Shown here one piece after another: positions 1,743 to 21,858 of a stretch of DNA of 34,575 nucleotides. Origin of the DNA: Bacteroidales bacterium. Lineage in GTDB: Bacteria; Bacteroidota; Bacteroidia; Bacteroidales; JAIORY01. Within the stretch, counting starts at the first letter, position 1. Each line of letters starts with the position of its first letter. The notes under the pieces were generated by a model that saw only the letters and a program-made list of their open reading frames with translations, was not told the origin of the DNA and ran no database searches. The stretch is from NCBI GenBank assembly GCA_030630005.1, contig DAOVNY010000003.1:1-34575 (forward strand), given 5' to 3'. Both the position numbers and the translations under genes were made by a program.

Positions 1743-1746
1743 AAAA

Positions 1747-4519: not shown

Positions 4520-4562
4520 TTTATAAAATCTTATGTTTTGCAACTAATATTAGTGCCTAAAG

Positions 4563-4723: not shown

Positions 4724-4760
4724 TTTTAGTTCACTTTAAGTACCAATTAAATCCAAAGCT

Positions 4761-5618
4761 TTATTCATTTAACATTTTACTCAAATTCCTATAACTAATT
4801 GAAACACTTTCTAATGGAGGTTTTCGACAAACATCCTGTTCAACAAAAAAGTATTTCATTCCTGATAGTTCTTTGTATTTGAATAACTCCTTAAAATCAA
4901 TTATTCCATTTCCAACTTCCGTAAAAAATCTTTCTTCACTATCTTCCATATCTTTTACATGCCATAGTTCAAATCGTCCGGGATATTTTTTAAAATAGGT
5001 GATCGGATCAAAACCTGCTTTAATTATCCAGTAAAGATCGAGTTGCATTTTAACCAATTCTTCATCAGTTTCTTTTAAAAGAACATCGTAAGGAATTATG
5101 CCTTCAATATTTACAAATTCAAAATCATGATTATGATAAGCAAATTGAACACCGGACTTTTTACATAACTCACCAATTTTATTAAAATCTTCAGCAAGCT
5201 TTTTATAACTGTCTATACTTTTTCTTTTTTCGACAGGCAACCAGGGAAGTACCAGATACTTAATTTCTGATTCACAGGTGTCATCAATTACTTTTTGAGC
5301 ATTATCAAACTCAAAACCTGCATGAAAACTTGGCAGAATCATACCGAGATCATTTACCATTCTTTTAAATTCTTTTGGTTTTAATCCGTAAAATTTACCA
5401 TTTGAATAACCGGCAGCTTCAACAGAATTATAACCAATTTGAGCAAGTTTTTTAAGAGTTCCGTACAGATCATCTTTTATCAAATCTCTGACAGAATAAA
5501 GTTGTAATCCAATCAGTAATTTTTTTGATCCGGGAAATGAACACATTTCAAAAGGAAAGATAATACTTCCTGCTGTTATTGCAGCTATTGACTTAATAAA
5601 GGTTCTTCGAGTTTTCAT
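4761..5618 (-). CDS. Exported sugar phosphate isomerase/epimerase-like TIM-barrel protein
   Basis: 285 residues from the Met at 5618. The longer frame to 5687 translates repeat DNA (PETQNPKLETQ) and is unlikely. The N-terminus MKTRRTFIKSIAAITAGS has an RR pair and hydrophobic run and looks Tat-like. The body is a xylose-isomerase-like TIM barrel (AP endonuclease family 2): LQLYSVRD, SVEAAGY, FAYHNHDFEF, QLDLYWIIKAG, ELWHVKDM and FVEQD contain the acidic and His residues expected to bind a divalent metal. Members isomerise or epimerise sugars or keto sugars. It lies between two oxidoreductase genes of the cluster and probably acts on the same keto-sugar intermediates in the periplasm. Exact reaction unknown. 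Confidence 0.85.
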   Translation of the reverse strand: MKTRRTFIKSIAAITAGSIIFPFEMCSFPGSKKLLIGLQLYSVRDLIKDDLYGTLKKLAQIGYNSVEAAGYSNGKFYGLKPKEFKRMVNDLGMILPSFHAGFEFDNAQKVIDDTCESEIKYLVLPWLPVEKRKSIDSYKKLAEDFNKIGELCKKSGVQFAYHNHDFEFVNIEGIIPYDVLLKETDEELVKMQLDLYWIIKAGFDPITYFKKYPGRFELWHVKDMEDSEERFFTEVGNGIIDFKELFKYKELSGMKYFFVEQDVCRKPPLESVSISYRNLSKMLNE

Positions 5619-5745
5619 AATTATTTGAGTTTCGAGTTTTGGGTTTTGGGTTTCGGGTTTCGCCAGACATTTAACTTCCATTACCATTACTCCATTACTC
5701 CATTACTCCATTACTCCATTACTCCATTACTCCATTACTCCAAAT
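5619..5745. repeat. Short tandem repeats: GGGTTTCG-type and TCCATTAC octamers
   Basis: The spacer upstream of the isomerase gene starts with iterations of gagttttgggttttgggtttcggg (about 5626-5660). It then has six exact tandem copies of the octamer TCCATTAC at 5691-5738, plus a partial copy on each side. Octamer tracts of this kind can change length by slippage. The same GGGTTTCG-type tract occurs at 33641-33675. Confidence 0.85.
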
Positions 5746-7329
5746 TTATACAATCCTTTTCTTCTCTTTATCCCAATACACTTTCCTGTTTTCGCGATAA
5801 GCAATTGTACCCATGTGTGATGTAATTGCGCCCTCAAAACCACGATCGATATTACAACTCGGCTGAGTTCCTTTTCTTATACAGTCAATCCATTCCTTAA
5901 TGTGAAGGTGAGTTGTATCAACCATTTTACCTCCGCGTTGAGTGTATAACAAACCTCTTCCGGCAAAATATTTTTCGGTAGGAGAAGATATTGCATCCAC
6001 TTTTTCTACTCCGGGAACATAAGTATAAAGCGGACTTGATGGGTCAAATATTCCTTTTTCAATCTTTTCTTTATAACGTGTAGAGTTACGATCGGCAGTT
6101 ATTGTAAGGGTATTGCCAAGTTCCATCGAAGCATCATGCCCCATAATCACTCTGCCTCTTTTACGACTGCTTGCCAGACTGGCACTATAAACTAAAGACA
6201 TATCCTTTTCGGGAAATTCAAAAACAGTTTGAAGTACATCAGGGACTGTCCGTCCATCCTTAAAGTGATAAATACCACCGGAAGAAATTGCGGAATCAGG
6301 AATTCCAATATCCATAATTTGATTTATCGCATCATACTCATGAGTAAGCAAATCACCTGATAATCCTGTGCTATAATCCCACCAGCAACGCCAGCGAAAG
6401 AACCTTTCGAGACTGAATTTATGATAAGGTGCATGTCCTATAAACTGATCCCAATCAATAGTCTGAGGATTAGCATCAGGGTGGATTTTATAAACCCATG
6501 CTCCGTTTGAAGTATTCCGGTTTGTAGTAACTTCAATTAAACTTATCTTGCCGAGAATATTTTTTTCAATTGCTTCACGGGCTTTAAAATAGCTCTCTGT
6601 TTGCCTCCCCTGATGACCAAGCTGAAAAACAATATTATTTCTTTTTACGGCTTCAACAACTTCATAAGTTTCCGTAGCTGTCCATGTCATTGGTTTTTCG
6701 CAATAAACATGTTTTCCTGCATTTGCAGCGTCAATTGTCATTCGTCCGTGCCAATGATCGGGAACAGAAATAATGACAGCATCAATATCATCAGCGGCAA
6801 GAAGTTCTTTGTAAGTCCGGTATCTTCTTGGTTCAGTTCCCATTTTCCCGACTGTTCCTTCCCTGTTAATATTTGAAGCTGCCTTTTGAGCATTTTCAGC
6901 ATAAACATCAAAAATATCACAAACACCATTTATAACAACATTAAGGTTTTCCTGTTGTAAGAAATTTTTATATCTTTTGTCGTTTTTATCCTTTAAAGCT
7001 TTTTCTTTCAGATCGTCAATATATTGGGGATGAGCGAAACCGGCACCACGAGCAAGATGTGGTCCACGAATTCCAAATCCTATTAATCCTAATCTTATTT
7101 GCTTTCCTCCGGCTGTTAATTCAGTTATTTCCGGTGCTGCGTGACTAAGATCAAGTTCTTCATTAATGGTAGTCCTAAGTATATTATCAAATTTATTTTT
7201 CCGGTAAACACCGTAAGCCATTGCACCCAGCACAGGAACAGTTGCTAATCCTTTTAAAATATCTCTTCTGGAAAATCTACCGGAATTGGTCTGATTTTGG
7301 TTTTTACTATCCTTTTGTCTCTCGTTCAT
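5746..7329 (-). CDS. Tat-exported Gfo/Idh/MocA family oxidoreductase
   Basis: 527 residues. The N-terminus is polar and Asn/Gln-rich, then a twin-arginine motif FSRRDILKGL (19-28) and a hydrophobic run to about residue 42. The nucleotide-binding loop is GLIGFGIRGP (81-90), followed by VIISVPDHWHG, EKP at 211-213, and in the C-terminal domain WDQFIGHAP, RCWWDYSTGLSGDLLTHEYD. This W/H-rich motif is typical of the long envelope Gfo/Idh/MocA proteins of Bacteroidetes. The start at 7329 is supported by the signal and by lack of a better Met. It lies 91 bases downstream of the DoxX gene. Expected to oxidise or reduce a sugar in the periplasm, substrate unknown. Confidence 0.9.
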   Translation of the reverse strand: MNERQKDSKNQNQTNSGRFSRRDILKGLATVPVLGAMAYGVYRKNKFDNILRTTINEELDLSHAAPEITELTAGGKQIRLGLIGFGIRGPHLARGAGFAHPQYIDDLKEKALKDKNDKRYKNFLQQENLNVVINGVCDIFDVYAENAQKAASNINREGTVGKMGTEPRRYRTYKELLAADDIDAVIISVPDHWHGRMTIDAANAGKHVYCEKPMTWTATETYEVVEAVKRNNIVFQLGHQGRQTESYFKAREAIEKNILGKISLIEVTTNRNTSNGAWVYKIHPDANPQTIDWDQFIGHAPYHKFSLERFFRWRCWWDYSTGLSGDLLTHEYDAINQIMDIGIPDSAISSGGIYHFKDGRTVPDVLQTVFEFPEKDMSLVYSASLASSRKRGRVIMGHDASMELGNTLTITADRNSTRYKEKIEKGIFDPSSPLYTYVPGVEKVDAISSPTEKYFAGRGLLYTQRGGKMVDTTHLHIKEWIDCIRKGTQPSCNIDRGFEGAITSHMGTIAYRENRKVYWDKEKKRIV

Positions 7330-7420
7330 AATTATTTATTCTAAATCTTTAATTATTCCCCCAAAGGGGAAGGAGCTACTTTGTATAAAATATATAGTTA
7401 TTATTTCTAATATTCAAAAG

Positions 7421-7933
7421 TTATTTTTTCACTGCCGACTGTTTACTTCCGACTTCCGACTTTTTTTTAAAAATCAATCTATCCATGCCAATAATCTTGC
7501 TTGTCGGAAAAACCAGTAACACAGCAAGAGTAACTAATTCAACAAATATTTTATTTACAATTAGATAATTCCCCTCTGTTGGGAGATTATAATCCAAACC
7601 GGGAAAAGGTGGATGAGACAGATAATACATTGTCAGTAAAACTATTCCTGCTATCTTAGCTATCCTGGCAAGGCAACCCAAAATAAGCCCCAGTCCAATT
7701 GCAATCAATCCATAGATATTCATAATATCAACAACATTAAGAACGCCTTGATCAGCAGCAATTGATTTATAAAAACCAGACATAAAACCCTGAGAATCCA
7801 TCAGGTATCCAAAACTTGACCATGCCGGATCAATCAATTTCACTAATCCTTCATACAAAAAAAGCCAGCCGATAATAACTCTTAATATTACAAGCATACT
7901 TAGCTGGCTTTTTGAATAATTCTTATTTTTCAT
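7421..7933 (-). CDS. DoxX-family membrane protein
   Basis: 170 residues with about four membrane segments (roughly 12-28, 65-88, 92-107, 125-145). RVIIGWLFLYEGLVKL is a DoxX-type opening helix. DoxX-like proteins are small inner-membrane proteins; some are thought to be quinone-linked subunits of dehydrogenases. Placed directly before a Tat-exported oxidoreductase, it could pass electrons from periplasmic sugar oxidation to the membrane, which is inference. The last dozen residues (SEVGSKQSAVKK) are encoded by a heptamer-like repeat tract (AGTCGGA/GTCGGAA, about 7430-7463), so the C-terminus seems to have grown into spacer repeat DNA. Confidence 0.85.
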   Translation of the reverse strand: MKNKNYSKSQLSMLVILRVIIGWLFLYEGLVKLIDPAWSSFGYLMDSQGFMSGFYKSIAADQGVLNVVDIMNIYGLIAIGLGLILGCLARIAKIAGIVLLTMYYLSHPPFPGLDYNLPTEGNYLIVNKIFVELVTLAVLLVFPTSKIIGMDRLIFKKKSEVGSKQSAVKK

Positions 7934-8007
7934 ATTTATTTTTTAATCTGTGAATCTGTGGCTATTTTTTATATAATTTTTCGCAGTGGACTCAATCTTA
8001 AATCAAA

Positions 8008-9273
8008 TCACAATTCTAAAATCAAAACATCTTTCCATCTCACCATAATTCCACCACCGCTATGGATTTGAAGAGCAACCACTCCGGTAGCTTCACCAAT
8101 TTTTTCATCAATTAAATTAGTCATTTCTTCTCCATTCAACCATGTAACAACATTATCATCAATTACTCTAATTCTCATAATATTCCACTCACCCATTTTA
8201 AGAAATTTCTCTTTTTCCTCAGGAATTTCATTAAGCCAGCCTCTACCACACGATTCATAAATTCCACCTGTATTTTTCCCGGGAGGTGCCACTTCTACCT
8301 GCCAACCACTGATCTTTGTTCCGTCAAGGGATGAACGAAAAAAGATACCGCTGTTACCATTTGTTTCCTGTTTGAATTTTAATGTAAGCTCAAAATTCTT
8401 GAATTCTTTTTCTGTGGCAAGGTATCCGTATTTTTTATCAGGTCCGCTTTCGCAGATGAGTTCACCATTATTGACAAACCATTTTTCAGTCCCGTGAATT
8501 TTCCAGCCATCAAGATTTTTTCCATTAAATAATGAAACAGTATTTTCATCAAGCTCTCTGATCTTAATATTTCTGAACCAAACAAGACTTCCATGATCCT
8601 GCAAGGCAATATGTCCTTTTTTTGCCAGTCCATAGCCCTGATAATCCTTCCATTTACAGTTTTTAACCAGTTCTTTCCATTCATCAGTCCAGAGTGTATA
8701 TTCAACAACTTTCTCGCCGTTAAGCCAGTGCTCAACATGATTACCGGCAACAATTATCTTTGTAGTATTAAATTCACCAACGGGTTTTATTTTCGTTTCT
8801 TTTGCAGGATGCATTGCATAATTAGCAGCAGTCATTTGCCAGTCTTTAAGTTTTTGAGGAAAACCAATATCATCTATCAACTGATATTCGGGACCCGTGG
8901 AATAAACTGTAGAATAATCTTCTTCAAGAACACGATAAAAAATACCACTATTACCGGCTTCGGAGATCGCCCACTCTATTTTGAGTTCGAAATTATCAAA
9001 CTGCTCATCAGTAATGATATCACCGCCAAGGTCACCTCCTTTACCCAGTCCTGTAAGCAAACCGTTTTTCACATCCCATCCTGTAAGAGTATCAGATTGA
9101 AATCCACGCCATCCATTTGTTGTTTTACCGTCAAATAAAAGGTTCCATCCTTCCTGCTTTTCCTGCTCTGTAAGAATATTATTATTTTTTTGATCTTTTT
9201 TACAATCGGAGTTGTAATTACATGAAACAAAGACAGAAACAAATAGAAGTACAAAAATTGATTTCCTGATCAT
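8008..9273 (-). CDS. Tandem DUF1080 (3-keto-disaccharide hydrolase family) lipoprotein
   Basis: 421 residues. A lipoprotein signal ends at FVSC (Cys18). Two DUF1080 domains follow. Domain 1, about 40-240, runs from GWNLLFDGKTTNGWRGF to LVWFRNIKIREL. Domain 2, about 243-421, runs from VSLFNGKNLDGWKIHG to VRWKDVLILEL. Each has its own NSGIF motif (GNSGIFYR, GNSGIFFR). This is a fusion relative to the single-domain protein at 758-1552. Domain 1 resembles that protein more closely (shared WTDEWK/WTQDWK and LQDHG) than domain 2 does. It is the first gene of the minus-strand cluster, with a -7-like box 38 bases upstream. Likely role is outer-membrane-anchored cleavage or binding of 3-keto-glycosides. 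Confidence 0.9.
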   Translation of the reverse strand: MIRKSIFVLLFVSVFVSCNYNSDCKKDQKNNNILTEQEKQEGWNLLFDGKTTNGWRGFQSDTLTGWDVKNGLLTGLGKGGDLGGDIITDEQFDNFELKIEWAISEAGNSGIFYRVLEEDYSTVYSTGPEYQLIDDIGFPQKLKDWQMTAANYAMHPAKETKIKPVGEFNTTKIIVAGNHVEHWLNGEKVVEYTLWTDEWKELVKNCKWKDYQGYGLAKKGHIALQDHGSLVWFRNIKIRELDENTVSLFNGKNLDGWKIHGTEKWFVNNGELICESGPDKKYGYLATEKEFKNFELTLKFKQETNGNSGIFFRSSLDGTKISGWQVEVAPPGKNTGGIYESCGRGWLNEIPEEKEKFLKMGEWNIMRIRVIDDNVVTWLNGEEMTNLIDEKIGEATGVVALQIHSGGGIMVRWKDVLILEL

Positions 9274-9377: not shown

Positions 9378-11069
9378 TTACATTTTCCCATGACGCAAGA
9401 TAGAAATAAGAAGCCAAAATCCTAAAAGCCCTGCAGCAATAAAACCTACAACTCCAATAACAGGAACATCATTCCATAAGGGCGGGATTTTTGAAAGCAC
9501 TATTAATGAAGAGCCAACTATTATTGAAGCGAGAACAATAGCAAAAGAAATTCGGTTACTGATGCGTTCGTGTGTGCCAAGCATAGGGTCAAGTCCTTTA
9601 TGCTCAATATCCATTTTTATTGTACCATTTTTTACTTTTTCGATAATTTCGCGAATTTCAAAAGGCAGTTCTTTCATCAGTTGCAGCAATTCTTCAGAAG
9701 AAATGAATAAGTCTTTTGCAATTTTGCGAATGTGCAAGCGTTCCCTGATCATCTTCTTTAAATAAGGCTCTATATGTACTGCCACATTAAAATCAGGATC
9801 AAGTATTTCTCCATTTCCCTGTAGAAGCAGCATTGACCTCCCCAGCAAATACAGATCGGAAGGCATTTTTAAGTTATTTTCAGGATAGAATTTCATTAAA
9901 TCATTGACCAGGGCAGCCATGTCCATTTGTTCCAACGATTGATTAAAATACCTATCTATAAGTTCTGTGATCTGTAATTCCAGTTTCCGGGTTTTTACTT
10001 CGCCATCTGTTTCACACAATCTGAGTAAATTCCTGATAATTTTGTCGATATCGCGATGAATTGCTCCGGCAGCCATTGATGTGATTAGTTCTCTTGTAGT
10101 CCGGGTAAGTGTTCCCATCATTCCATAATCAAGAAAACAAATTACGTTTTCAGGCAATACTAAAATATTACCCGGGTGAGGATCAGCATGGAAAAATCCA
10201 AATTCAAATATTTGTTTTGATACCAGGTCAGCTCCCCTTCTTGCAATAATTTTACAATCGAGGTCATTTGCTTTGATACTTTTAATATCTGAAATTTTAA
10301 TACCATCAATATATTCTATTGTCAGGATTTTTTTTGTACTAAAATTCCGGTAGCATTTGGGAACATATATGTTTGGGTCTTTCTGAAAATTATTACCAAA
10401 TCGTTCCAGATTTGAAGCCTCAATAGCAAAATTCAACTCCTTGTGAATAGCTCTTTCAAATTCTTCAACAATTTTAACAATGTTCAAAGATCTCATTTCC
10501 TGAACATGCTTTTCCATCATCATAGCGAGATGAAACATTATTTCCAGATCAGTTTCAATAGTCCGATCAATTCCCGGACGCTGAACCTTAACTACAACTT
10601 CCTCTCCTTCGATAAGAATTGCTTTATGCACCTGGGCAATGGAAGCAGCGGCGAGAGGTGAATATGAAATACTTTCAAATACTTCCGAAATTGGTTTTCC
10701 CAACTCTTGTTCAACAAGGGAAATTGCTTTTTCTCCGGAAAAGGGAGGCACAGAATCCTGAAGTTTTTCTAATTCATGTATTAATTCAATAGGAATTAAA
10801 TCTGCCCGTGTACTCATTACCTGACCAAACTTGATAAACGTTGGTCCGAGTTCTTCCAAAACAAGTCGCATACGTTCCCATCGCGAAAGAGTATGAATTG
10901 TAGAATCTGCCTTCCTGAAAACAATCTTTCTACCAAAATCAATAACGCTCTCTAACCTTGACCGGGAAATAATATCGGCAAACCCATATTTTGTAAGTAC
11001 ACCGATAATTTCCATATAGCGGTTGACATGACGATATGTTTTGCCAATCATTCCGATCTTACGAATCAT
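9378..11069 (-). CDS. UbiB/AarF (ABC1) family atypical kinase
   Basis: 563 residues, typical family length. The KxGQ signature is KFGQ (80-83), the Ala-rich loop AAASIAQVH is at 140-148, a lysine in VVVKVQRPG at 161, HADPHPGN at 294-301, and the DYG metal-binding motif at 314-316. Two hydrophobic segments at the C-terminus (about 512-560) anchor it in the inner membrane. UbiB proteins have ATPase activity and support isoprenoid quinone synthesis or lipid handling. Here the quinone would probably be menaquinone, so the role is uncertain. Its ATG is one base past the TAA of the phasin-like gene, and the AAAGGAG overlapping that stop serves as ribosome site, so the two are translationally coupled. 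Confidence 0.92.
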   Translation of the reverse strand: MIRKIGMIGKTYRHVNRYMEIIGVLTKYGFADIISRSRLESVIDFGRKIVFRKADSTIHTLSRWERMRLVLEELGPTFIKFGQVMSTRADLIPIELIHELEKLQDSVPPFSGEKAISLVEQELGKPISEVFESISYSPLAAASIAQVHKAILIEGEEVVVKVQRPGIDRTIETDLEIMFHLAMMMEKHVQEMRSLNIVKIVEEFERAIHKELNFAIEASNLERFGNNFQKDPNIYVPKCYRNFSTKKILTIEYIDGIKISDIKSIKANDLDCKIIARRGADLVSKQIFEFGFFHADPHPGNILVLPENVICFLDYGMMGTLTRTTRELITSMAAGAIHRDIDKIIRNLLRLCETDGEVKTRKLELQITELIDRYFNQSLEQMDMAALVNDLMKFYPENNLKMPSDLYLLGRSMLLLQGNGEILDPDFNVAVHIEPYLKKMIRERLHIRKIAKDLFISSEELLQLMKELPFEIREIIEKVKNGTIKMDIEHKGLDPMLGTHERISNRISFAIVLASIIVGSSLIVLSKIPPLWNDVPVIGVVGFIAAGLLGFWLLISILRHGKM

Positions 11070-11070
11070 T

Positions 11071-11379
11071 TTACTCCTTTGTTTTTTTACTTAGAGAACT
11101 TTGCAGCTTATCCAATTGTTTTTGGATTTTTTTCAGGTCTTCATGAGTTGCTACTCCTAACTTATCAACAACCTTTTTTACTTCACCATTAATCTTTCCC
11201 TCAATCTGTTGCTTAGTTTCTTCCGAATGTTTAAGAAGTTCATCTGCAAATTTACGACTTTCTTCCTTTGTTAATTTTGCCTCTTCGGCAGTTTTTTTTG
11301 CAAATTCTTCTACTTTTTCTTTAGTCATCAAACCAATTCCGATTCCTGTAAGAATCCCTTTTTTTAATAGATCAATCAT
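11071..11379 (-). CDS. Phasin-like coiled-coil protein
   Basis: 102 residues, Lys/Glu-rich. The N-terminus MIDLLKKGILTGIGIGLMTKE is a short amphipathic or hydrophobic helix, the middle a long charged helix, and the C-terminus (EDLKKIQKQLDKLQSSL) a heptad-like coiled coil. It resembles PHA-granule regulator (phasin) family proteins, which are often next to ubiB-like genes. No PHA synthase gene is present here, so a granule role is not supported. A strong Shine-Dalgarno AAAGGAGGT, unusual in this phylum, lies seven bases before the ATG. First gene of a two-gene operon with the UbiB kinase, which suggests a membrane or lipid-linked partner. Confidence 0.8.
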   Translation of the reverse strand: MIDLLKKGILTGIGIGLMTKEKVEEFAKKTAEEAKLTKEESRKFADELLKHSEETKQQIEGKINGEVKKVVDKLGVATHEDLKKIQKQLDKLQSSLSKKTKE

Positions 11380-11432: not shown

Positions 11433-11440
11433 CAAATATA
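11433..11440 (-). promoter_or_regulatory. -7 box for the phasin-like/ubiB operon
   Basis: TATATTTG on the minus strand, matching TAnnTTTG, 54 bases before the ATG at 11379. No clear -33 TTTG at normal spacing. Confidence 0.45.
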
Positions 11441-11497: not shown

Positions 11498-12937
11498 TTA
11501 TTTTTCAGTTTTCTGTAATAAATCACTATATTCGAGTTCATTAATATTTTTAGTTAATTCCGTTAGTTCTTCATCATAATTAACCATAGTCTGAAAATAA
11601 TTTGCATCTTTTAAAGCTTCATCTGCTTGTTTGTTTTCAGGTTTTGAATTATCGGTAATTATATTTTCTCTGAAATTTTTATAATGGTCTCTTATTGAGC
11701 ATGGCATTAGATGATTTTTGCGTATTTTTTCATAATCAAGCTGCCACTTACGCCCGTTTTTCATAAACCGAGATTGAACTGCATCGCCAAGATTTTTCCC
11801 CTGTTTAAATAAATCATAAACATTATCAACATAATAAGGCACAAAAACACAGGGCATAATATTGCCGTTCCAATCAATATAAATATACCCGTTATTCCTA
11901 CCATAAGCTACGCAACCATTACTAATAATACCGCTATTCCAAAAATCGGCAACAGGATATTTTTTTTCAGATAATACTTTTTCCCAAACTTTGTAAAGTT
12001 CTACTCTTTTTTCAGGTGACACAACCAAGTCAAAGGTTTCTTTACCACGCCCGATAGGCATAAATTGAAATTGCCACATATACGAAACTCCCAATTTTTC
12101 AAAATAATAATCGTAGAATTCGTCAGTAAGTAAAATATCACAGTTTTTACTTGTTGCTGTTACAGAAATTCCAAACGGAACACCAGCTTTCCTTAGATTT
12201 TCCATGGCTTTAAGTATTTTATTGTAAACGCCTTTTCCCCTGCGCTCATCTGTTTCATCTTCATAACCTTCAACAGATATAGCAGGTGTAACATTTCCTA
12301 ATTCCGAAAGCCTTTGAGCTATGGAAGGCGTTATTAAAGTCCCGTTAGTATAAACCAGAAAAAAAACATCACTATATTTTTCAAAAATATCCAACAATGT
12401 TTTGCCTTCACTTTTATACATAAACGGTTCACCTCCGCTAACCACAATGAATTTTCTCCCAAAAACATCGTGAACATCACCAATTATTCTGTCAACAACA
12501 GGATATGGTAATGTTGGGACCGTATGGTTGGTACTTCCCGCATAACAACCCGTACATTGTAAATTACATCTCTGCGTTGGTGAAATAACAACAAAACCGG
12601 GCGGATACTCACCATATTTTGATTTATATTCGGTTTGTAATTTTCCTATTTTATCCCCTGCCTTTGTTATTAATTTTTTTCCAACTAATGTATGAGTACT
12701 TCTTTTTAATCCATTCTTGGAATAATATCCTTTCCCTAAGTTCTTTTCAATAATGTTTAGCAGACTTGAATAAAACTGGTATCTTTTCAATCTTTCCTCG
12801 TAAGATCCACTATCAATATCTTTTGAGAATTTATTAAACATATAATTATCTAATTGTCTAACGGCAACAGTCCTAAGATGTTTGTTAAAAATAATACTTT
12901 CAACTGCTTTTTGAAAAATTACTTCCTTTGTTTTCAT
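11498..12937 (-). CDS. Radical SAM protein with SPASM-like C-terminal cysteines
   Basis: 479 residues. The radical SAM cluster motif CNLQCTGC supplies Cys124, 128 and 131 (CxxxCxxC), followed by GGEP (VVSGGEPF) for SAM binding. The C-terminal part has further cysteines (SNGCVAYG, IMPCVFVP, LMPCSIRDH) in the pattern of an auxiliary-cluster SPASM-like domain. An N-terminal helical region of about 110 residues precedes the barrel. SPASM proteins modify peptides or carry out other oxidations; no precursor peptide gene is evident nearby. A TetR gene lies immediately upstream on the same strand, and the two promoters share a candidate operator. Substrate unknown. Confidence 0.88.
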   Translation of the reverse strand: MKTKEVIFQKAVESIIFNKHLRTVAVRQLDNYMFNKFSKDIDSGSYEERLKRYQFYSSLLNIIEKNLGKGYYSKNGLKRSTHTLVGKKLITKAGDKIGKLQTEYKSKYGEYPPGFVVISPTQRCNLQCTGCYAGSTNHTVPTLPYPVVDRIIGDVHDVFGRKFIVVSGGEPFMYKSEGKTLLDIFEKYSDVFFLVYTNGTLITPSIAQRLSELGNVTPAISVEGYEDETDERRGKGVYNKILKAMENLRKAGVPFGISVTATSKNCDILLTDEFYDYYFEKLGVSYMWQFQFMPIGRGKETFDLVVSPEKRVELYKVWEKVLSEKKYPVADFWNSGIISNGCVAYGRNNGYIYIDWNGNIMPCVFVPYYVDNVYDLFKQGKNLGDAVQSRFMKNGRKWQLDYEKIRKNHLMPCSIRDHYKNFRENIITDNSKPENKQADEALKDANYFQTMVNYDEELTELTKNINELEYSDLLQKTEK

Positions 12938-12976
12938 TTTTAAATTTTTATATGATTCATTTACAACAATTATACC

Positions 12977-13002
12977 ATTTGACTTAATATCGTTTATTAG
13001 TC
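12977..13002. promoter_or_regulatory. Candidate TetR operator upstream of radical SAM gene
   Basis: This 26-base site opens ATTTGACTTAATATCG. It matches the site at 13608-13632 at 20 of 25 aligned positions with one gap, and is itself an imperfect palindrome (TGACTTAATA facing TTATTAGTCA, 12980-13003). It lies 40 bases upstream of the radical SAM start. Confidence 0.5.
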
Positions 13003-13019
13003 AGTTTTGTATAAAAAAA

Positions 13020-13598
13020 TTACCTCTTCTCTATTCCCCTGACAAGAATTGAAACCAATTCGTTTAACCTGCTTCCCAGTTCATTATATTTATCTTCTAT
13101 AAAGAAAGGTATTTCCAAGCCTTTTAAAGCTGTCAAAATTGCAGGAGCTGTTATTTCGACACTATTTATATCAAATTCGTTATTATTCACTCCGCCGGTT
13201 AAAATAGATTTTATAAGAATTGTTTCCTCATTATCATATCTTTGTCGAATATCCCCAATAAAATCAAGGTAATTCAAATAATTATTTTTTATTGCATCGT
13301 GAAAATTAATTAACTCATTTAATGTTTTCATTCTAACAGTAATGTAGTTTACCAATTTTTCTTTAGCATTATTTCCATTATCTATAGCTTCAATTAGTTC
13401 AGTTCTTAATGTTTGAAATTCCTTATCAACAACTTTTTGGAATAAGTCTTCTTTGCTTTCAAAATGATAGTAAACAGAGCCTTTGGCTTTATGAGCAGCG
13501 CGTGCAATTTCATCTACTGTGGTTTTGTGGAAACCGAATTTACTGAATATATTAGCTGCTACATTTAAAATTCTTTCTTTAGTTTCATCAATTTTCAT
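13020..13598 (-). CDS. TetR/AcrR-family transcriptional regulator
   Basis: 192 residues. The N-terminal helix-turn-helix is clear: RILNVAANIFSKFGFHKTTVDEIARAAHKAKGS then VYYHFESKEDLF (about residues 9-53), the standard TetR DNA-binding signature. The C-terminal helical domain (about 60-190) would bind an unknown ligand and dimerise. Its promoter carries a motif also found before the radical SAM gene just downstream, suggesting it represses both itself and that gene. It is separated from gdhA by a terminator. Confidence 0.92.
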   Translation of the reverse strand: MKIDETKERILNVAANIFSKFGFHKTTVDEIARAAHKAKGSVYYHFESKEDLFQKVVDKEFQTLRTELIEAIDNGNNAKEKLVNYITVRMKTLNELINFHDAIKNNYLNYLDFIGDIRQRYDNEETILIKSILTGGVNNNEFDINSVEITAPAILTALKGLEIPFFIEDKYNELGSRLNELVSILVRGIEKR

Positions 13599-13607
13599 TT
13601 CTATTCG

Positions 13608-13632
13608 ATTTGACTAATTAGGTTTATTCGTA
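13608..13632. promoter_or_regulatory. Candidate TetR autoregulatory operator
   Basis: A 25-base site (opening ATTTGACTAATTAGG) lies between the -7 box (13633-13640) and the tetR ATG (13598), that is, over the expected transcription start. It shares ATTTGACT, AAT and GTTTATT blocks with 12977-13002. The placement fits repression by blocking RNA polymerase. Confidence 0.5.
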
Positions 13633-13640
13633 CAAATATA
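13633..13640 (-). promoter_or_regulatory. -7 box of tetR
   Basis: TATATTTG on the minus strand, matching TAnnTTTG, 35 bases upstream of the tetR ATG. No good -33 element seen. Confidence 0.45.
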
Positions 13641-13700: not shown

Positions 13701-13730
13701 AAAAAAAGCCCCTCGTTTAAAACGAGGAGC
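13701..13730 (-). terminator. Intrinsic terminator of gdhA
   Basis: On the minus strand the hairpin GCTCCTCGTTTTAAACGAGG (13730-13711) continues into GGGC and is followed by seven T (13707-13701). One mismatch in the lower stem. It lies 37 bases downstream of the gdhA stop and isolates gdhA from tetR. Confidence 0.85.
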
Positions 13731-13766
13731 TTTAACACAAATTCACTTAAAATAAACAAAGATAAT

Positions 13767-15375: not shown

Positions 15376-17712
15376 TTAGGCTACTTTTATTTCGTATAAA
15401 TGTTTCTGAAAATCAATAAATAATGAGCTTATATTTGCAACATCGCCCAATATTTCTTTTGCGTCTTCCAACGATTGGTATTTATTTGTTAGTAAGATTG
15501 GTAATTTTTCCTGAGCAAGTTCTCCAACTCCTGTTTCAATATATTTGCTTAATACAAATTCAATAAATTCCTTTTGTTGATCATTTAGTAATGCAAAAAT
15601 TGTTGCTTCTGCTCTTGTTACTCTTTCTTCTCTTGTTATCGGTTTTATGTCGCTGTTAAACACATATTCCAATACATCAAATAAGTCGCTTTTTTCTGCA
15701 TTGATTAGTTTTTTCAAAGTGTTTAAATCTTCTTTTCCGAAACCTGCTTCGTCCAACTTCTCAAGCAAAATTTTACGTGTCATTGGGTTGCTCCATAAAG
15801 TCCGTAATTCTTCTTCGCTTTTAAAGAAGTTAGGAAGTTCACCAAACAAATTATTTAAAAACTCTTCTGCCGAAATTGGATTACCGTCTGCATTCCAAAA
15901 CGAAGTAGCAATCATGTGTTGTATTTCTCTTTCTTTTCCGTCTTTCAGTTTTATCTTAATTCTTTTCTTTTTTTCTTTTGGTTCATAAATACCATCTTTC
16001 TCCAATGCTGTTGACGGCTCTTTAAATTCTTTTGGTTTATATTCTTTGGGTTCTTCTTCAACCGGCTCACCATCCCATTCCGGATCAGAAAATCGTTGAT
16101 AAGCATCTACAAAATCGTAAATAGTAAAAAACTCTTTCCCATCAAAAAGACGTGTTCCTCTCCCCACTATTTGTTTAAACTCAATTATCTGATTTACCGG
16201 TCGCATCAAAACAATATTACGGATATTCCGGGCATCAACTCCTGTTGATAGTTTTTGTGAAGTTGTTAAAACTGTCGGAATTGTTTTTTCATTGTCTTGA
16301 AATTTTCTTAAAAATTGCTCTCCAATCTCTCCATCATTGGCGGTAACACGAACACAATAATCAGGGTCTTTGCTTTTCTTGTATTGATTTACCAATTCCC
16401 GAACAGCAGCTGCGTGGTCTTGTGTAGCACAGAAAATTATTGTTTTGTCATTCTCATTGGCTTCGTCCATATAAATCCGAACTCGTTTTGCCTCTCGTTC
16501 TTTTATTTCAATGATTCGGTTAAAATCAGGTTCTTCATACAGTTTTCCTTCTTCAATTTCGCCTTCAATAATATTATCATCACTTGTATAAATATAATCG
16601 TCAAGCGTGGTTTTAATTCGTTTAACTTTGAAAGGCGTTAAAAAACCATCATTAATACCTTCTTTAAGCGAATAGATATAAACCGGCTCGCCAAAATATT
16701 TATAAGTGTCAACATTGTCTCTTCGTTTTGGCGTAGCTGTTAAACCCAATTGAACAGCAGGCGAAAAGTACTCTAAAATCCCTCTCCAATTTCCTTCGTC
16801 ATTTGCTCCGCCACGATGACACTCATCAATTATGATAAAATCAAAATAGTCTTCGGGATACTGCCCAAAACTTGGTACTGAATTCCCTTCAGCATCAGAA
16901 CCACTCATGAAAGATTGAAAAATGGTAAAGAAAATGCTGCCGTTGGTTGGCACTCTACCTCTCATTCTTATTTCGCTGGGTTTAATTCTTACCATTGCAT
17001 CATCAGGGAATTTTGAAAAAGCATTAAATGCCTGGTTTGCGAGAATATTTCGGTCTGCCAAAAACAAGATGCGAGGTCTTCGGTTCCCGTCTCTTTGTAA
17101 ATTCCAACGAGTATAAAAAAGCTTCCATGCAATTTGAAAAGCAATAGCTGTTTTCCCTGTTCCTGTGGCAAGAGTTAATAAAATACGGTCTTTGTTTTGT
17201 GCAACGGCTTCCAAAGTATTTTTTACTGCAATTTCTTGATAATATCGCAATTGCCAAGTACCGCTTTTATCTTCATAAGGAACGGAAGCAAATTTATCTC
17301 GCCATTCGTTTTGGTCAGAATAAGTTTTATCCCAAAGTTCTTCAGGAGTAAGAAAATCTGAAACCAAACCCTCTGCACCTGTTTTCATACAAATTTGGTA
17401 AATCTCTTTTCCGTTGGTTGAGTAAGTAGTTTCTAAATTTAGTTTTTCGGCATATTGTTTTGCTTGTGCCACACCTTCGCCTACTTCCAACTCATCGCTT
17501 TTAGCTTCAACAACAGCGAGTTTAACACCTTTGTAAACCAAAATATAATCAGCAATAAGTGGTTTTTTCCTGCCACCGCCAACTTGTATTTTTCCGTCTG
17601 TAATCTTACAAACATTGCGTTCACGAAGGATTTTAGAACCTTCAACAACTCCCCAACCACAAGATTTTAATTTGGGGTCTATTAATTCTGCTCTTGTTTC
17701 CGCCTCATTCAT
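15376..17712 (-). CDS. hsdR: Type I restriction endonuclease, R subunit
   Basis: 778 residues. The N-terminal nuclease domain has D55 (IADYILVY) and E69-x-K71 (VVEAK), a PD-(D/E)XK site. The helicase has Walker A ATGTGKT (182-188), DECH (296-299), LGLTATPKR, and motif VI QIVGRGTRLF. The C-terminal third is the EcoEI-R type coupling domain that contacts HsdM/HsdS. All motifs look intact. Role: ATP-driven translocation and cleavage of DNA lacking the methylation. It is the last gene of a long minus-strand operon led by hsdM, but six accessory genes or remnants separate it from hsdM and hsdS. The spacer before it carries two 14-bp repeats, GGTTAGTTGTTAAT (about 17730-17757). Confidence 0.93.
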   Translation of the reverse strand: MNEAETRAELIDPKLKSCGWGVVEGSKILRERNVCKITDGKIQVGGGRKKPLIADYILVYKGVKLAVVEAKSDELEVGEGVAQAKQYAEKLNLETTYSTNGKEIYQICMKTGAEGLVSDFLTPEELWDKTYSDQNEWRDKFASVPYEDKSGTWQLRYYQEIAVKNTLEAVAQNKDRILLTLATGTGKTAIAFQIAWKLFYTRWNLQRDGNRRPRILFLADRNILANQAFNAFSKFPDDAMVRIKPSEIRMRGRVPTNGSIFFTIFQSFMSGSDAEGNSVPSFGQYPEDYFDFIIIDECHRGGANDEGNWRGILEYFSPAVQLGLTATPKRRDNVDTYKYFGEPVYIYSLKEGINDGFLTPFKVKRIKTTLDDYIYTSDDNIIEGEIEEGKLYEEPDFNRIIEIKEREAKRVRIYMDEANENDKTIIFCATQDHAAAVRELVNQYKKSKDPDYCVRVTANDGEIGEQFLRKFQDNEKTIPTVLTTSQKLSTGVDARNIRNIVLMRPVNQIIEFKQIVGRGTRLFDGKEFFTIYDFVDAYQRFSDPEWDGEPVEEEPKEYKPKEFKEPSTALEKDGIYEPKEKKKRIKIKLKDGKEREIQHMIATSFWNADGNPISAEEFLNNLFGELPNFFKSEEELRTLWSNPMTRKILLEKLDEAGFGKEDLNTLKKLINAEKSDLFDVLEYVFNSDIKPITREERVTRAEATIFALLNDQQKEFIEFVLSKYIETGVGELAQEKLPILLTNKYQSLEDAKEILGDVANISSLFIDFQKHLYEIKVA

Positions 17713-17752
17713 AATTGTTAATTATTAATGGTTAGTTGTTAATGGTTAGTTG

Positions 17753-18115
17753 TTAATACTTGATTAAGTTTAATTTTGTTGTTTTAATAATACTTGTAAT
17801 TAATTTTATCATTTCAATAGCATCAATATTAATACTTTCAAATTGTTCTATACTTAAATAATTAGTTTCTCTTAACAGTTCTAACCAATAAATACTTTCG
17901 TTTATTTCTTTTTGTGCAATTGCCATTTTATGAATAAAATCAGCCTTGCTCTCAGCGTGTTCTGCCTATCTAACCAAAGCACTTACACTTGTACCACTTC
18001 TTAACAACTGTTTTGAAAGAACATATTCTTTCTTTTCTGATTGAATAAATTGATATAGTTTCACAATGCGAATTGCAAATTTAAAACTCTTCTCTTTTAC
18101 AATATTTTTCTTCAT
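17753..18115 (-). pseudogene. Four-helix-bundle (S23/IVP-like) gene broken by a TAG
   Basis: Reading from ATG at 18115 to TAA at 17753 gives 120 residues with one internal stop, TAG at 17968-17966 (codon 50). The product around it, RSGTSVSALVR then AEHAESKADFIHKM, closely follows the four-helix-bundle protein family (TIGR02436, related to 23S rRNA intervening-sequence proteins), where the missing residue is usually Glu in REAE. A single G-to-T change in GAG would explain it. The frame is otherwise undamaged, so the mutation is recent, a sequencing error, or read through. The function of the family is poorly known. It lies between the BRO-like gene and hsdR. Confidence 0.8.
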
Positions 18116-18161
18116 CTTAATATCTTCATTAACAATTTATAATTAACCATTAATAATTATT

Positions 18162-19016
18162 CTACTCATTGTCAATTTTCAATTTTCCATTATCAATTAA
18201 GTTGTTTTTATCAGAAACAACGCTTCTTCCTAACTCTTTTTCAGTATTTCTTCTTGCATTTCCTGCAACTTTGCCACCTCTTTTAGCTACACTTTTATTT
18301 TTATAAAAGGTATCGGGTTTCTCTTTTTTAGAAATCTCTGTGGTAACCCGCTCTCCTAACATTGTGAAAATAAGCTCCAAATCATCCATATTGTCACGTA
18401 AGTTAATTTTCGACTTTTCAGGGATGTTTTTAAACTCTTTATATTCACTTGGTGTCATACCAAAAGTTGCTTTGGAAATTTCGGCAGTTAAAATAGCATA
18501 ATCTCTATGTTCTTTTATACCTCGCTCTTTCCATTCATCCGTTAAGTTTTGTCGAATGGCAATTCCTCGCAGTCGTTTATCAATCCAATCTTTTGGATAG
18601 CCCTTTTGCTCATAAATTTCTTTCATCCGTTCTTGAGCAAGTTCGGGGTTTTCTATCTCATCTAAGCGTTCTTTACCCACTTGTGCCAACCACTGTTTAA
18701 ATGGTTCAGCTTTTTTTGATGGAATGGATTGAATTAAACGTAGAATATCTTTTGTATCAGCAATATCAGTCATTCTCATTTTACCATCGGCAGATAGCAT
18801 TTTCAACCGGTTACAATTTGTAACCGTTTCGTTCCCCTCTTTTAAAAGTCTATGTTTTAAAACTTTCCAATAATTTCTTGCCCCCTGATAATCTTTCTGT
18901 TCTGTTAATATTTCTACAATATCAACAATTGAAAAATACCATTTTTCTTCTGTTTCGTCCCAGTGAGTTCTGATTTTTTGCTCTTGAAAAAGTTGTAATT
19001 TATTTGATTTATCCAT
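18162..19016 (-). CDS. BRO/DinD-like protein (Bro-N domain)
   Basis: 284 residues. The N-terminal Bro-N domain (about 7-110) includes KWYFSIVDIVEILT, ARNYWKVLKHRLLKEGNE, TNCNRLKM and IPSKKAEPFKQWLA, a fold shared with phage antirepressors and expected to bind DNA. The C-terminal part (ERGIKEHRDYAILTAEISKA, SEYKEFK, AKRGGKVAGNARRNTEKELG) is like DinD. Such genes often sit inside type I R-M loci. A 19-bp palindrome lies within the coding sequence (18808-18826). The last dozen residues (LIDNGKLKIDNE) are encoded by a TCAATT-type repeat, suggesting the frame runs into spacer DNA. Two more palindromes lie just upstream of its start. Possible regulator of the R-M operon or a stress-linked protein, unproven. 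Confidence 0.85.
   Translation of the reverse strand: MDKSNKLQLFQEQKIRTHWDETEEKWYFSIVDIVEILTEQKDYQGARNYWKVLKHRLLKEGNETVTNCNRLKMLSADGKMRMTDIADTKDILRLIQSIPSKKAEPFKQWLAQVGKERLDEIENPELAQERMKEIYEQKGYPKDWIDKRLRGIAIRQNLTDEWKERGIKEHRDYAILTAEISKATFGMTPSEYKEFKNIPEKSKINLRDNMDDLELIFTMLGERVTTEISKKEKPDTFYKNKSVAKRGGKVAGNARRNTEKELGRSVVSDKNNLIDNGKLKIDNE
18808..18826. repeat. Intragenic palindrome in BRO-like gene
   Basis: CGGTTACAA-T-TTGTAACCG, nine perfect pairs around one base, with two more pairs after a mismatch. It encodes the TVTNCNR stretch of the Bro-N domain. Same core (CAA-W-TTG) as three other palindromes in this locus. Confidence 0.9.
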
Positions 19017-19035
19017 ATTAATTCCTTTTAAAATT

Positions 19036-19068
19036 ATTCAGTTGTACCCAAATTGGGTACAACTGAAT
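19036..19068. repeat. 33-bp perfect palindrome upstream of BRO-like gene
   Basis: ATTCAGTTGTACCCAA and its exact complement flank a single A. The right edge of the BRO-like ORF is only 19 bases away, so a hairpin would sit at its ribosome-binding region or act as an operator. Read on the minus strand it could encode SVVPNLGTTE then stop, but that frame is only 22 codons long. Confidence 0.9.
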
Positions 19069-19081
19069 TTTGTAATCTATC

Positions 19082-19100
19082 TAGGGACAATTTGTCCCTA
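19082..19100. repeat. 19-bp palindrome upstream of BRO-like gene
   Basis: TAGGGACAA-T-TTGTCCCTA, nine perfect pairs around one base, the same 9+1+9 design and CAA-T-TTG centre as the palindrome inside the BRO-like gene. It lies 13 bases from the 33-bp palindrome. Confidence 0.9.
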
Positions 19101-19156
19101 TGTTAAATCTTATATTCTCCACTATACAAAATTTTAAATTCTTAATCAAAACCCAA

Positions 19157-19246
19157 TCAAGAAACTTTTTTATGCCACTCCCCGTAAGCTTCTTTGCCTT
19201 GAAATACTACAAGTTTATTTTGTGGAGCTATATTTTTATTCTTCAT
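19157..19246 (-). pseudogene. Fragment of a BRO-like N-terminus
   Basis: A 29-codon frame from ATG at 19246 to TGA at 19157 reads MKNKNIAPQNKLVVFQGKEA and then YGEWHKKVS. It aligns with the opening of the intact BRO-like protein (SNKLQLFQEQKIRTHW) and with typical Bro-N starts. It begins 14 bases after the stop of the three-Cys-motif gene. It is best read as the remnant of a second, decayed BRO gene whose palindrome may survive at 19082-19100. A tiny functional peptide is less likely. The similarity is short, so confidence is limited. Confidence 0.4.
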
Positions 19247-19260
19247 TATTTGATTGTCTG

Positions 19261-20013
19261 TTAAAATATTGCATATTGTTGTTCAATAATTTCAGGATAT
19301 TGTTGCCAAATCTTACCATCTAAAATTTTTCCATTTTGCTTTTTATTTCGTTTTACTTTATCAGCCCCCAAAGTACCCCATTGTTTAAAGAAAAAAGCAA
19401 TATCTTTTTCTTCACATTGCTGTTTTATGTTTAAGACCCAACTTTTTTCCATTGACCTTGCCCTGTTGCCACTTTCTCCACCAACAATTACCCAATCAAT
19501 GTTTTCAAAATTTATTCTTCCCAAATCTTCAAGTAATGGTTCTACCGAAAGAAATAAAACACTTGCTTTTAATTGTCTTAATTTGTCTATCCTTGGCAAA
19601 CCTTCTTTTTTGTTATCAACTGTTACGCCAAGCCAAATATTTTTAGGTATTTCTCTTTGAGACAGATATTGAAACATTCTATCCGCCCTTTTTGTCAGAA
19701 TTTGATAAGTGTGATGCGGTGTTTCTTTAATTACATCAAAAATTTTATTCAAATATTCTTCGGGCATATCTTTATGAAAGATATCACTCATTGAGTTAAC
19801 AAAATAAACAGTTGGTTTTTTTCTTTTAAAAGGGTCATTTAGCCTACTTGGCACAGTATTAAATGTAAAACCATTTTCATAGCCTTCAACTCCCATCGCC
19901 TGTAATCGGATAGCCATTGTTTCAGCATAGCAATTTTTACAGCCTAAACTAATTTTTGTACAACCTGCCGAAGGGTTCCACGTTTGCTCTGTCCATTCTA
20001 TTTTATGTGCCAT
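19261..20013 (-). CDS. Three-Cys-motif phage Gp37/Gp68-like protein (DUF5131)
   Basis: 250 residues from the ATG at 20013; an alternative TTG nine bases upstream is not needed. The opening MAHKIEWTEQTWNPSAGC, then TKISLGCKNCYAE, carries Cys18, Cys25 and Cys28 (CX6CX2C), the mark of the phage Gp37/Gp68 family (PF07505), which resembles radical SAM Fe-S sites. Other conserved parts are YFVNSMSDIFHKD, YQILTKRADRM, WLGVTVDN, LFLSVEPLL and DWVIVGGESG. The family's usual partner TcmP is absent. Gene starts nine bases after the RAYT stop, so it belongs to the R-M operon. The reaction is unknown; nucleic acid modification or repair is a guess. Confidence 0.88.
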   Translation of the reverse strand: MAHKIEWTEQTWNPSAGCTKISLGCKNCYAETMAIRLQAMGVEGYENGFTFNTVPSRLNDPFKRKKPTVYFVNSMSDIFHKDMPEEYLNKIFDVIKETPHHTYQILTKRADRMFQYLSQREIPKNIWLGVTVDNKKEGLPRIDKLRQLKASVLFLSVEPLLEDLGRINFENIDWVIVGGESGNRARSMEKSWVLNIKQQCEEKDIAFFFKQWGTLGADKVKRNKKQNGKILDGKIWQQYPEIIEQQYAIF

Positions 20014-20022
20014 AGTTATCAA

Positions 20023-20646
20023 CTAATAAAATTTATCATTATCCCAATTATCAGGATTATTTTTAATGTATTCTGTAATTGTATTATATGAATTTTCATT
20101 TCGTATTATATGTTCCCAATAATTTCGTTGCCATATTTTTTTATCAAATGGTTTCCAATTTTTTGTTTTTACCCCGCGAATATATTCAACGGTGGTAATG
20201 GATTGAAATGCTCCAACCATTTGACCTAACGTTTTTTTATTTTGAATTTCCGTTGGGGTTTCCGTTGGGGTTTCCGTTGGGGCAATCCCTTGTGGTTGCC
20301 CTTTTTGATTTGGGTCGACCACGAGGGTCGCCCCTACGGTATTTTCGTTTTGGGTGGATGCGTTGTTATTCGGGGAAACGATTTCCAATATGGCGTGAAA
20401 ATGGTTGGGCATTGTAATATATTTGTGTAATTGAACGTTTTTAAATCGTTCGGTTAATTTTAACCATTCGTTATTTATCATTATTCCGGCATCATTCAAA
20501 ATCATTTTGCAGTTTTTAATATTACCAAATAAATGTTCCCTGTTTTGACAAACAATGGTAACAAAATACAATCCTGCCTGCGAATAATCATATCCTTTTA
20601 ATCGGATTGACCTACGATGATGAATATTTGGATTATATTTTGTCAT
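20023..20646 (-). CDS. REP-associated tyrosine transposase (RAYT, Y1_Tnp/IS200-like)
   Basis: 207 residues. The family opening is RRSIRLKGYDYSQAGLYFVTIVCQNR, the HUH-type metal site is HFH in MPNHFHAIL, and the C-terminal helix has IWQRNYWEHIIRNENSYNTITEYI with a candidate catalytic Tyr. All key parts are present, so it is probably functional. RAYTs are single-copy, domesticated relatives of IS200 transposases that act on REP palindromes. Between residues about 100 and 135 is an insert, TVGATLVVDPNQKGQPQGIA then PTETPTETPTEI, encoded by two REP-like hairpins and three 12-bp tandem repeats. It starts three bases after hsdS and ends nine before the three-Cys gene, so it lies inside the operon without breaking it. 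Confidence 0.9.
   Translation of the reverse strand: MTKYNPNIHHRRSIRLKGYDYSQAGLYFVTIVCQNREHLFGNIKNCKMILNDAGIMINNEWLKLTERFKNVQLHKYITMPNHFHAILEIVSPNNNASTQNENTVGATLVVDPNQKGQPQGIAPTETPTETPTEIQNKKTLGQMVGAFQSITTVEYIRGVKTKNWKPFDKKIWQRNYWEHIIRNENSYNTITEYIKNNPDNWDNDKFY
20247..20282. repeat. Three in-frame 12-bp tandem repeats inside RAYT
   Basis: TTTCCGTTGGGG occurs three times exactly (20247-20258, 20259-20270, 20271-20282). On the minus strand each unit encodes four residues (P-T-E-T pattern), so copy-number change would keep the frame. Confidence 0.95.
20280..20337. repeat. Two REP-like hairpins inside RAYT
   Basis: Hairpin A, 20280-20301: GGGCAA pairs with TTGCCC, with an inner CC/GG. Hairpin B, 20312-20334: GGG-T-CGACC faces GGTCG-C-CCC around ACGAG, followed by TAC. 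Both are GC-rich in an AT-rich locus and look like the REP palindromes that RAYTs recognise, yet stay in frame as the GATLVV...GQPQGIA segment. Confidence 0.75.
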
Positions 20647-20649
20647 AAA

Positions 20650-21858
20650 TTAAAATTCCCCATTAAACGCTTTTTGCAAAACCGACTTTTTTAATTCCCC
20701 CAAATCTACAATTTTTTTCTGATAAACAGCTTCCAATCTTTTGGTTTCGGCTGAAAGAGCATCAAGTTTTTTGACAATGGTTTGTTGTTCGGATAAGGAT
20801 TTTGGAAATGGAATAATAATACTTTTTACTTCGCTATTTGTTACTGCTGGGTAACTTGCTCCTTTTTGAAGTTTCTCCATTTGTTGATTAAACCCAAAAG
20901 TTAAAAGGAAGTAATAAATGAAATTGTTATTCAAAAAATCTTTTGCCCTTAAAACATAATAACCCGTACTACAAACCTGATTATTATATTCTTCTGTAAT
21001 TATTGTAACTCGACTATGTGTTGGGCGAACAGTTGCAAAAATTACATCATTTGTTTTTATAAGTTTTCTTGCTCTACTTGGTGCATCTTTACCTAACAAT
21101 ATAGATGTTTCTTCAATCTGTTTTGTTTCTTTATTAACGCTTGATACATCAAGATAAATAAATTCTTCGTTAGGATTTAATTTTGGGTTTACTGTTTCTG
21201 TTTTTTGAAGGACTTTCCCCAAAGTCTTCTCTTCCCAATCATCTCCTTTATTCTCAAACACCCCTTGCAAATAACTCTCAAAAAGTTCCTTAGAATTTTT
21301 AAGGTTTTGTTCGGCATTGGTTTTTGCCTTGGCTATGGCGGCAAAGGCTTTATCAAGAATGGCTACTATGCGTTTTTGTTCGGAGAGTGGTGGGAGTGGG
21401 ATTTGGATTGCTTCAATTTGAGCCTTATTAATTGAATTAAAAACTGCACCTGTATTACAAACAATCTCATTTTCGTGTTTTAATAAATAATTAAATAGAA
21501 ATTCTTTTTCAATTAATTTACTTGCTCTAATTGCTGCAAGTCCACGACCAATACAAATTCTTTGAGTTGAAAAATTTATTGGACCAACAGGAGCACGAAC
21601 TGACATTAAAATATCGTTTGCTTTTGCTTCTTTAGTTATTTTGGTTGTCCACTTAGTTGGTTCTCCAATGTATTTTTTAGTAAATTCCTTCTTGCCCTGA
21701 TAAAAAGGCAATCCATTTTCTTTTGTATTATAGTATTTTCCCTCTGGTGATTGACCTGCAATTACTTTACAAACCTCCCCCAACTTTTTCATTTCCCAAC
21801 CCTTCTTTTTCAATTGAAAATTATTTTCATTGTCCACTATCAATTGTCCTTTATCCAT
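20650..21858 (-). CDS. hsdS: Type I restriction-modification specificity subunit
   Basis: 402 residues from the ATG at 21858, which overlaps the rhuM stop by eight bases; a longer frame to 22005 lies within rhuM and is rejected. Two target-recognition domains, each followed by a conserved helical region: GWEMKKLGEVCKVIAGQ opens TRD1, then QIPLPPLSEQKRIVAILDKAF; DDWEEKTLGKVLQK opens TRD2, then IPFPKSLSEQQTIVKKLDAL. HsdS chooses the DNA sequence methylated by HsdM and cut by HsdR. Both halves are complete, so a bipartite site is expected; its sequence cannot be predicted here. The first dozen residues (MDKGQLIVDNEN) are encoded by a TCAATTG-type repeat. Confidence 0.93.
   Translation of the reverse strand: MDKGQLIVDNENNFQLKKKGWEMKKLGEVCKVIAGQSPEGKYYNTKENGLPFYQGKKEFTKKYIGEPTKWTTKITKEAKANDILMSVRAPVGPINFSTQRICIGRGLAAIRASKLIEKEFLFNYLLKHENEIVCNTGAVFNSINKAQIEAIQIPLPPLSEQKRIVAILDKAFAAIAKAKTNAEQNLKNSKELFESYLQGVFENKGDDWEEKTLGKVLQKTETVNPKLNPNEEFIYLDVSSVNKETKQIEETSILLGKDAPSRARKLIKTNDVIFATVRPTHSRVTIITEEYNNQVCSTGYYVLRAKDFLNNNFIYYFLLTFGFNQQMEKLQKGASYPAVTNSEVKSIIIPFPKSLSEQQTIVKKLDALSAETKRLEAVYQKKIVDLGELKKSVLQKAFNGEF

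Follow-up and report, generated by a model that had tools for sequence, protein, structure and literature searches.

A predicted TetR operator suggests a lipid-linked regulon for a twitch-like radical SAM enzyme in a Bacteroidales genome

TetR/AcrR autorepressors of the QacR and Bacillus FadR type act through palindromic operators located near the promoter, an arrangement also predicted for the regulator described here (TetR1). In Porphyromonas gingivalis (PG1175-1181) and Prevotella, TetR genes share operons with MMPL transporters and LolA-like proteins, and PMC10434189 describes these operons as induced by iron starvation. Flexirubin and aryl polyene modules yield products that are placed in the outer membrane (PMC3992019, PMC8253772). 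The SPASM class of radical SAM enzymes is defined by the seven-cysteine motif CX9-15GX4C-CX2CX5CX3C-C (PMC6231123), and at the DNA level TAnnTTTG is the published -7 consensus of Bacteroides promoters (PMC7366714). A literature search found no publication describing the operator of TetR1.

The locus lies in a stretch of 34,575 nucleotides, analysed at its full length and called here the window, from a 2.26 Mb draft genome of a Bacteroidales bacterium (84.7% completeness; the host genome); the named entries of the genome collection closest to it are Bacteroidota MAGs. The genes around tetR1 all share the minus strand and run from glutamate dehydrogenase through tetR1, radical SAM (rSAM) and phasin-like to UbiB. 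The tetR1 gene (13020-13598) codes for a 192-aa TetR/AcrR regulator and is followed, co-directionally and after 82 bp, by the rSAM gene (11498-12937), whose 479-aa product carries a Radical_SAM domain (PF04055, 1.7e-23) and a twitch-like C-terminal domain. Upstream of tetR1, a GC-rich hairpin with a T-run (13701-13733, minus strand), read from the sequence, is a probable terminator of the glutamate dehydrogenase gene and would probably isolate tetR1 transcription from it. The phasin-like (11071-11379) and UbiB/ABC1 kinase (9378-11069) genes are adjacent but probably stand outside the regulon. Their membership was considered and rejected, because a 10.7-bit site upstream of them is not kept in a related genome (G083) and the pair has a promoter of its own; the TATATTTG box of this separate promoter (11433-11440, minus strand), unassigned to the regulon, is kept in G083 (locus L249), there without an operator. 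Elsewhere in the window, judging from the sequence, positions 15376-24201 appear to hold a Type I restriction-modification locus, with hsdR-, hsdS- and hsdM-like ORFs and interleaved extra ORFs, among them one for a BRO-like protein and a small one that is transposase-like (20023-20646). At positions 758-9273, putative genes for DUF1080-like proteins, Gfo/Idh/MocA-type oxidoreductases and sugar-isomerase-like proteins are clustered.

A sequence-only reading of the window had pointed to two similar sites, ATTTGACTTAATATCGTTTATTAGTC at 12977-13002 and ATTTGACTAATTAGGTTTATTCGTA(C), also written ATTTGACTAATTAGGTTTATTCGTAC, at 13608-13632, and both are present with that sequence at those positions. 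The match at 20 of 25 positions attributed to them holds once a 1-nt gap is allowed, not in an ungapped comparison, for which the best count is 15. The first site is, as described, imperfectly palindromic; its 5-bp outer arms TGACT/AGTCA (24 nt) match exactly, and its palindrome is statistically unremarkable by itself. The second is likewise palindromic and nearer to the family consensus. Similarity within the window, however, has no value as evidence on its own, since the local alignment score of the two intergenic regions was equalled or exceeded by 1044 of 2000 pairs after dinucleotide shuffling. Being at chance level for AT-rich DNA, this similarity left comparison with relatives as the way forward. 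It is also what a chance resemblance would produce, an explanation that is hardly credible nonetheless, as it is contradicted by the cross-genome matrix, the conservation of position and the genome-wide localization set out below. As predicted operators the two sites appear to be real, undetectable by in-window statistics and established by comparison.

The comparison relied on a tetR-type matrix made from 18 sites that precede tetR homologues, all taken from genomes other than the host. With this matrix the operator at the tetR1 promoter (O1, TTTGTACGAATAAACCTAATTAGTCAAA, 13609-13636, minus strand) scores 26.0 bits, against 7.7 bits for the next best place on both strands of the 34.6 kb window, or 8.4 bits if a one-base insertion is allowed. 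In the other genomes, the regions upstream of tetR homologues carry TAnnTTTG and then, directly, GTACTnnnAAACnnnnnTAGTCAAA. The corresponding -7 box of tetR1, TATATTTG (13633-13640, minus strand), agrees with the Bacteroides consensus, is kept in homologues and overlaps O1, which implies autorepression of tetR1. The sites had been placed at two promoters, and for tetR1 this is borne out. Moreover, the features expected of an autorepressor, that is, a palindromic operator overlapping its own promoter, are kept in the homologues sharing the recognition helix of TetR1. At one of the other loci (L158, G011:C166:7392-7498), two operator copies lie 83 bp apart in the gap between tetR and an MMPL gene, and a third is found upstream of tetR.

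TetR1 belongs to the TetR/AcrR family, judging by its N-terminal helix-turn-helix domain (TetR_N, PF00440, 1.6e-16) and by the all-helical ligand domain and Foldseek matches of its AF2 model (pLDDT 90.8), the closest folds being QacR, 6AZH (from Clostridium, putatively a regulator of fatty acids), Cytophaga 3F0C and Bacillus FadR. It falls outside the FadR-type acyl-CoA sensor family NF053878, with 58.6 bits against a cut-off of 200; an acyl or lipid ligand is plausibly suggested by the neighbouring genes, and is not itself a result. The recognition-helix segment KAKGSVYYHF (13461-13490, minus strand) defines a helix class, A, that co-occurs with the operator: the latter is found upstream of 19 of the 21 TetRs with helix [KR]AKGS[VLI]YY and of 1 of the 16 with KGKSS-type helices, a contrast that is informative mainly for the other helix classes, the matrix having been trained on class A sites. 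In two TetRs of a third type, with a KGRRT helix (L138, L143/L249), TGCACA..TGTGCA arms surround the same AAAAC centre, which may represent a natural specificity switch. Related TetRs are also encoded ahead of TolC-MFP-RND efflux operons (L141, L153, L156, L162), with another palindrome-like motif upstream, TTTTGGAACG ... AGTCGAA.

The second operator (O2, AACTGACTAATAAACGATATTAAGTCAAA, 12978-13006, minus strand) corresponds to the first of the two sites and occupies the gap between tetR1 and the rSAM gene. Only on the assumption of a 20-nt ACT..AGT span does it reach 19.1 bits, with none of 300 shuffles as good, a generous figure given that the extra base was put into the matrix where it fitted; at all other sites this span is 19 nt. 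With the full tetR-type matrix, which has different flanks, O2 scores 7.9 bits and falls inside the window background, so that the argument for it is drawn from the comparison of gap sites. A site is found after tetR in 14 of 18 homologous loci (P<=0.03 each, 300 shuffles per locus), mostly 18-29 nt past the tetR stop codon, and O2 lies at +18 nt as in its orthologues. The 19-nt form stands at the same place in five orthologous gaps (L005, L006, L007, L134 and L234), and in all of these save L007 it is followed by a conserved TGGYATRATTnTTG. A similar element of the host, TGGTATAATTGTTG (12964-12977, minus strand), lies just 3' of O2 and is plausibly the -7 region of an rSAM promoter, meaning that the second of the two promoters initially proposed is plausible but unproven. 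One of the close relatives (L006, 2907-3204) has lost the rSAM gene save a short C-terminal remnant, having kept tetR, the gap operator and a downstream SDR gene; it also bears another, incomplete copy of tetR that has an operator to itself (196-513). The SDR of the relatives was not found by a search of the host genome, run without a positive control.

The position of O2 raises the question of whether only O1 matters, with tetR1 and the rSAM gene forming one transcript from the tetR1 promoter and O2 being a decayed, non-binding remnant. The two genes do share a strand across a short gap in which no GC-rich terminator was seen, and O2, with its span of 20 nt against 19 in homologues, could bind weakly. 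The perfect TGACT/AGTCA arms of O2 and its score in the 20-nt form speak against decay, as does the retention of the gap site in homologues whose flanks have diverged, and this explanation is regarded as unlikely, if worth keeping in mind. Both motifs flanking tetR1 are very probably, on sequence grounds, binding sites of TetR1. The initial prediction of TetR self-repression and rSAM control has good computational support from phylogenetic footprinting, from the agreement between recognition helix and operator and from the genome-wide rarity of the motif.

The regulon also seems to be larger than first proposed, as a paralogous regulator and its MMPL operon have the same operator. This second TetR of the same class (TetR2) is split across two contig ends of the host genome, with its start and promoter on contig C223 and the remainder on C62; the fragments have an identical overlap and are accordingly taken as one gene. 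On C62, Pfam assignments give the order TetR2, MMPL, Acyltransf_2, LolA_like, patatin, LysE, GT2 and DUF1302-like, and no ketosynthase was seen in this neighbourhood. Operator counts in the host genome come from pattern searches. A first, loose whole-genome pattern was discarded as mostly noise, and the strict pattern KACKNNNAAACNNNNNTAGTMNAA is matched exactly at three places, namely the promoters of tetR1 and tetR2 and the gap between tetR2 and the MMPL gene; the genome scan suggested at the outset therefore returns the two tetR loci only, and further sites may be missing from this count as the draft is incomplete. Eight weaker, one-mismatch matches inspected in the host genome fall mostly in or across coding regions, none with a clear TetR or lipid-operon promoter context.

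Of 144 intergenic gaps not touching tetR, only three reach at least 16 bits, and these lie within the same TetR operons, one ahead of MMPL, one ahead of ACP-MMPL and one ahead of patatin. An O2-type pattern gave 11 matches in 14 genomes, a count not above that of the reversed-pattern control (12), so that only location is distinctive (8 of the 11 are in TetR/MMPL/rSAM/patatin operons); the operator patterns were, in addition, refined on some of the sites that they later found. In two genomes (G083 and G190; loci L235 and L236), a homologue of the rSAM enzyme, about 60% identical, is encoded between the MMPL and LolA/acyltransferase genes of MMPL-LolA-acyltransferase-patatin-GT operons, whose components were confirmed by Pfam. 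The rSAM gene directly follows a class A TetR in G186, G083, G062, G115, G175, L005 and L007, and further homologues (L238-L241, L245-L248) are away from TetR and MMPL genes. The operator common to both host loci would therefore link in trans genes that relatives hold in one operon. Together with the operator at TetR2 and its MMPL gene, the rSAM genes in MMPL operons of relatives make the regulon look lipid-linked, which suggests that the enzyme belongs with a lipid-export set and not with a peptide-modifying system.

The near identity of the TetR2 helix (KAKGSLYYHF) to that of TetR1 and the sharing of the operator by the two loci would also be expected if the sites were bound mainly by TetR2, or by both proteins, in which case rSAM repression would depend on the ligand of TetR2. 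However, L005 and L007 have TetR1-rSAM pairs with operators and no TetR2 seen nearby, and TetRs with autoregulation commonly target the promoters of their own genes, making this alternative a rather improbable one.

The enzyme itself has the CX3CX2C motif of the radical SAM superfamily (C124, C128 and C131, within the PF04055 domain), invariant in 18 homologues. Only three further cysteines are invariant in all 18, namely C342-X15-G-X4-C363 and C413. With three auxiliary cysteines where SPASM requires seven, the original label of SPASM-like does not hold; the cysteines fit the twitch pattern (CX9-15GX4C and one or two later), and the enzyme is better called twitch-like, although the two-sequence structural model (pLDDT 43) is too poor to be of help. 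The closest solved relative by profile is SkfB (1.3e-18), and weaker matches include the lipid-linking GDGT synthase 7TOL, in the core only.

SkfB being a sactipeptide maturase, and peptide maturases being among the NCBIfam matches below cut-off, the rSAM enzyme might be supposed to mature a ribosomal peptide, with the TetR sensing a peptide or antibiotic. The evidence runs largely the other way: the NCBIfam scores are far below the cut-offs, the full SPASM motif is absent, no listed ORF of at least 60 aa was found in the adjoining gaps (82 and 118 bp, which leave little room for shorter ones), there was no RRE family match, and the linked genes encode lipid enzymes and exporters. Peptide maturation is consequently judged very unlikely, and the search for a substrate peptide anticipated for this regulon finds no pointer to one; its members and gene neighbourhoods suggest lipid modification and export instead.

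From the computed operators, their conservation and the membership of the regulon, we infer binding, repression, the ligand class and the enzyme substrate, and arrive at a model that we hold to be probable. In this model TetR1, as a dimer or a pair of dimers, would bind the palindromic operator GTACT/TGACT-nnnAAACnnnnn-TAGTC/AnAA. At O1, over the end of the -7 box and the likely transcription start, it would repress its own gene; at O2, just upstream of the likely rSAM promoter, it would repress the rSAM gene. TetR2 would use this operator too, at the promoter of its own gene and ahead of the MMPL-acyltransferase-LolA-patatin-LysE-GT2-DUF1302 operon, the two loci probably forming one regulon with possible cross-regulation. 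The repressors would come off the DNA on binding a hydrophobic ligand, plausibly a lipid or fatty-acyl molecule. Lipid modification, in which the rSAM enzyme would perform one step, and export to the outer membrane would then be switched on. More speculatively, the enzyme may be the founding member of a lipid-modifying twitch family that acts on an outer-membrane lipid before the co-regulated MMPL-LolA system exports it, while two paralogous TetRs with a common operator sense the lipid or its precursor, a tentative idea.

Compared with known systems, TetR1 has the same fold as the QacR and FadR autorepressors (PDB 1JT0 and 3WHC; TM about 0.75-0.80), with only 23-26% identity, a different operator sequence and a target that is codirectional rather than divergent. 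In the PG1175-1181-type operons, likened here by gene content, genes for an MMPL transporter and for a protein that sorts outer membrane lipoproteins are co-transcribed with a TetR/AcrR gene. These operons include ABC transporters but lack a radical SAM enzyme, and the passages of PMC10434189 consulted report no operator for them. Their iron-starvation response makes an iron-linked signal possible for TetR1. The flexirubin (flxP-flxU, PMC3992019) and aryl polyene (apeD/J/L/M, PMC8253772) modules share with the C62 operon an acyltransferase, a LolA-like carrier, a glycosyltransferase and an RND/MMPL exporter, whereas the C62 set has no ketosynthase in sight and adds patatin, DUF1302 and, in relatives, the rSAM enzyme. 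The latter has in common with SkfB and SPASM/twitch enzymes (PMC6231123) the CX3CX2C core and the CX15GX4C start of the auxiliary domain, and differs in having only three auxiliary cysteines, in the lack of a precursor peptide and its lipid-linked neighbourhood. The operators are thus ordinary in kind, those of an autoregulated TetR with a local regulon, a kind already known. What they bring is a tie between a radical SAM enzyme, so far an orphan, and one particular set of lipid-export genes, and a case in which genes of one operon in relatives are split in the host yet keep the same operator. The substrate question becomes testable, with a lipid rather than a peptide as the candidate, and a defined operator is gained for a TetR class present across many Bacteroidota families.
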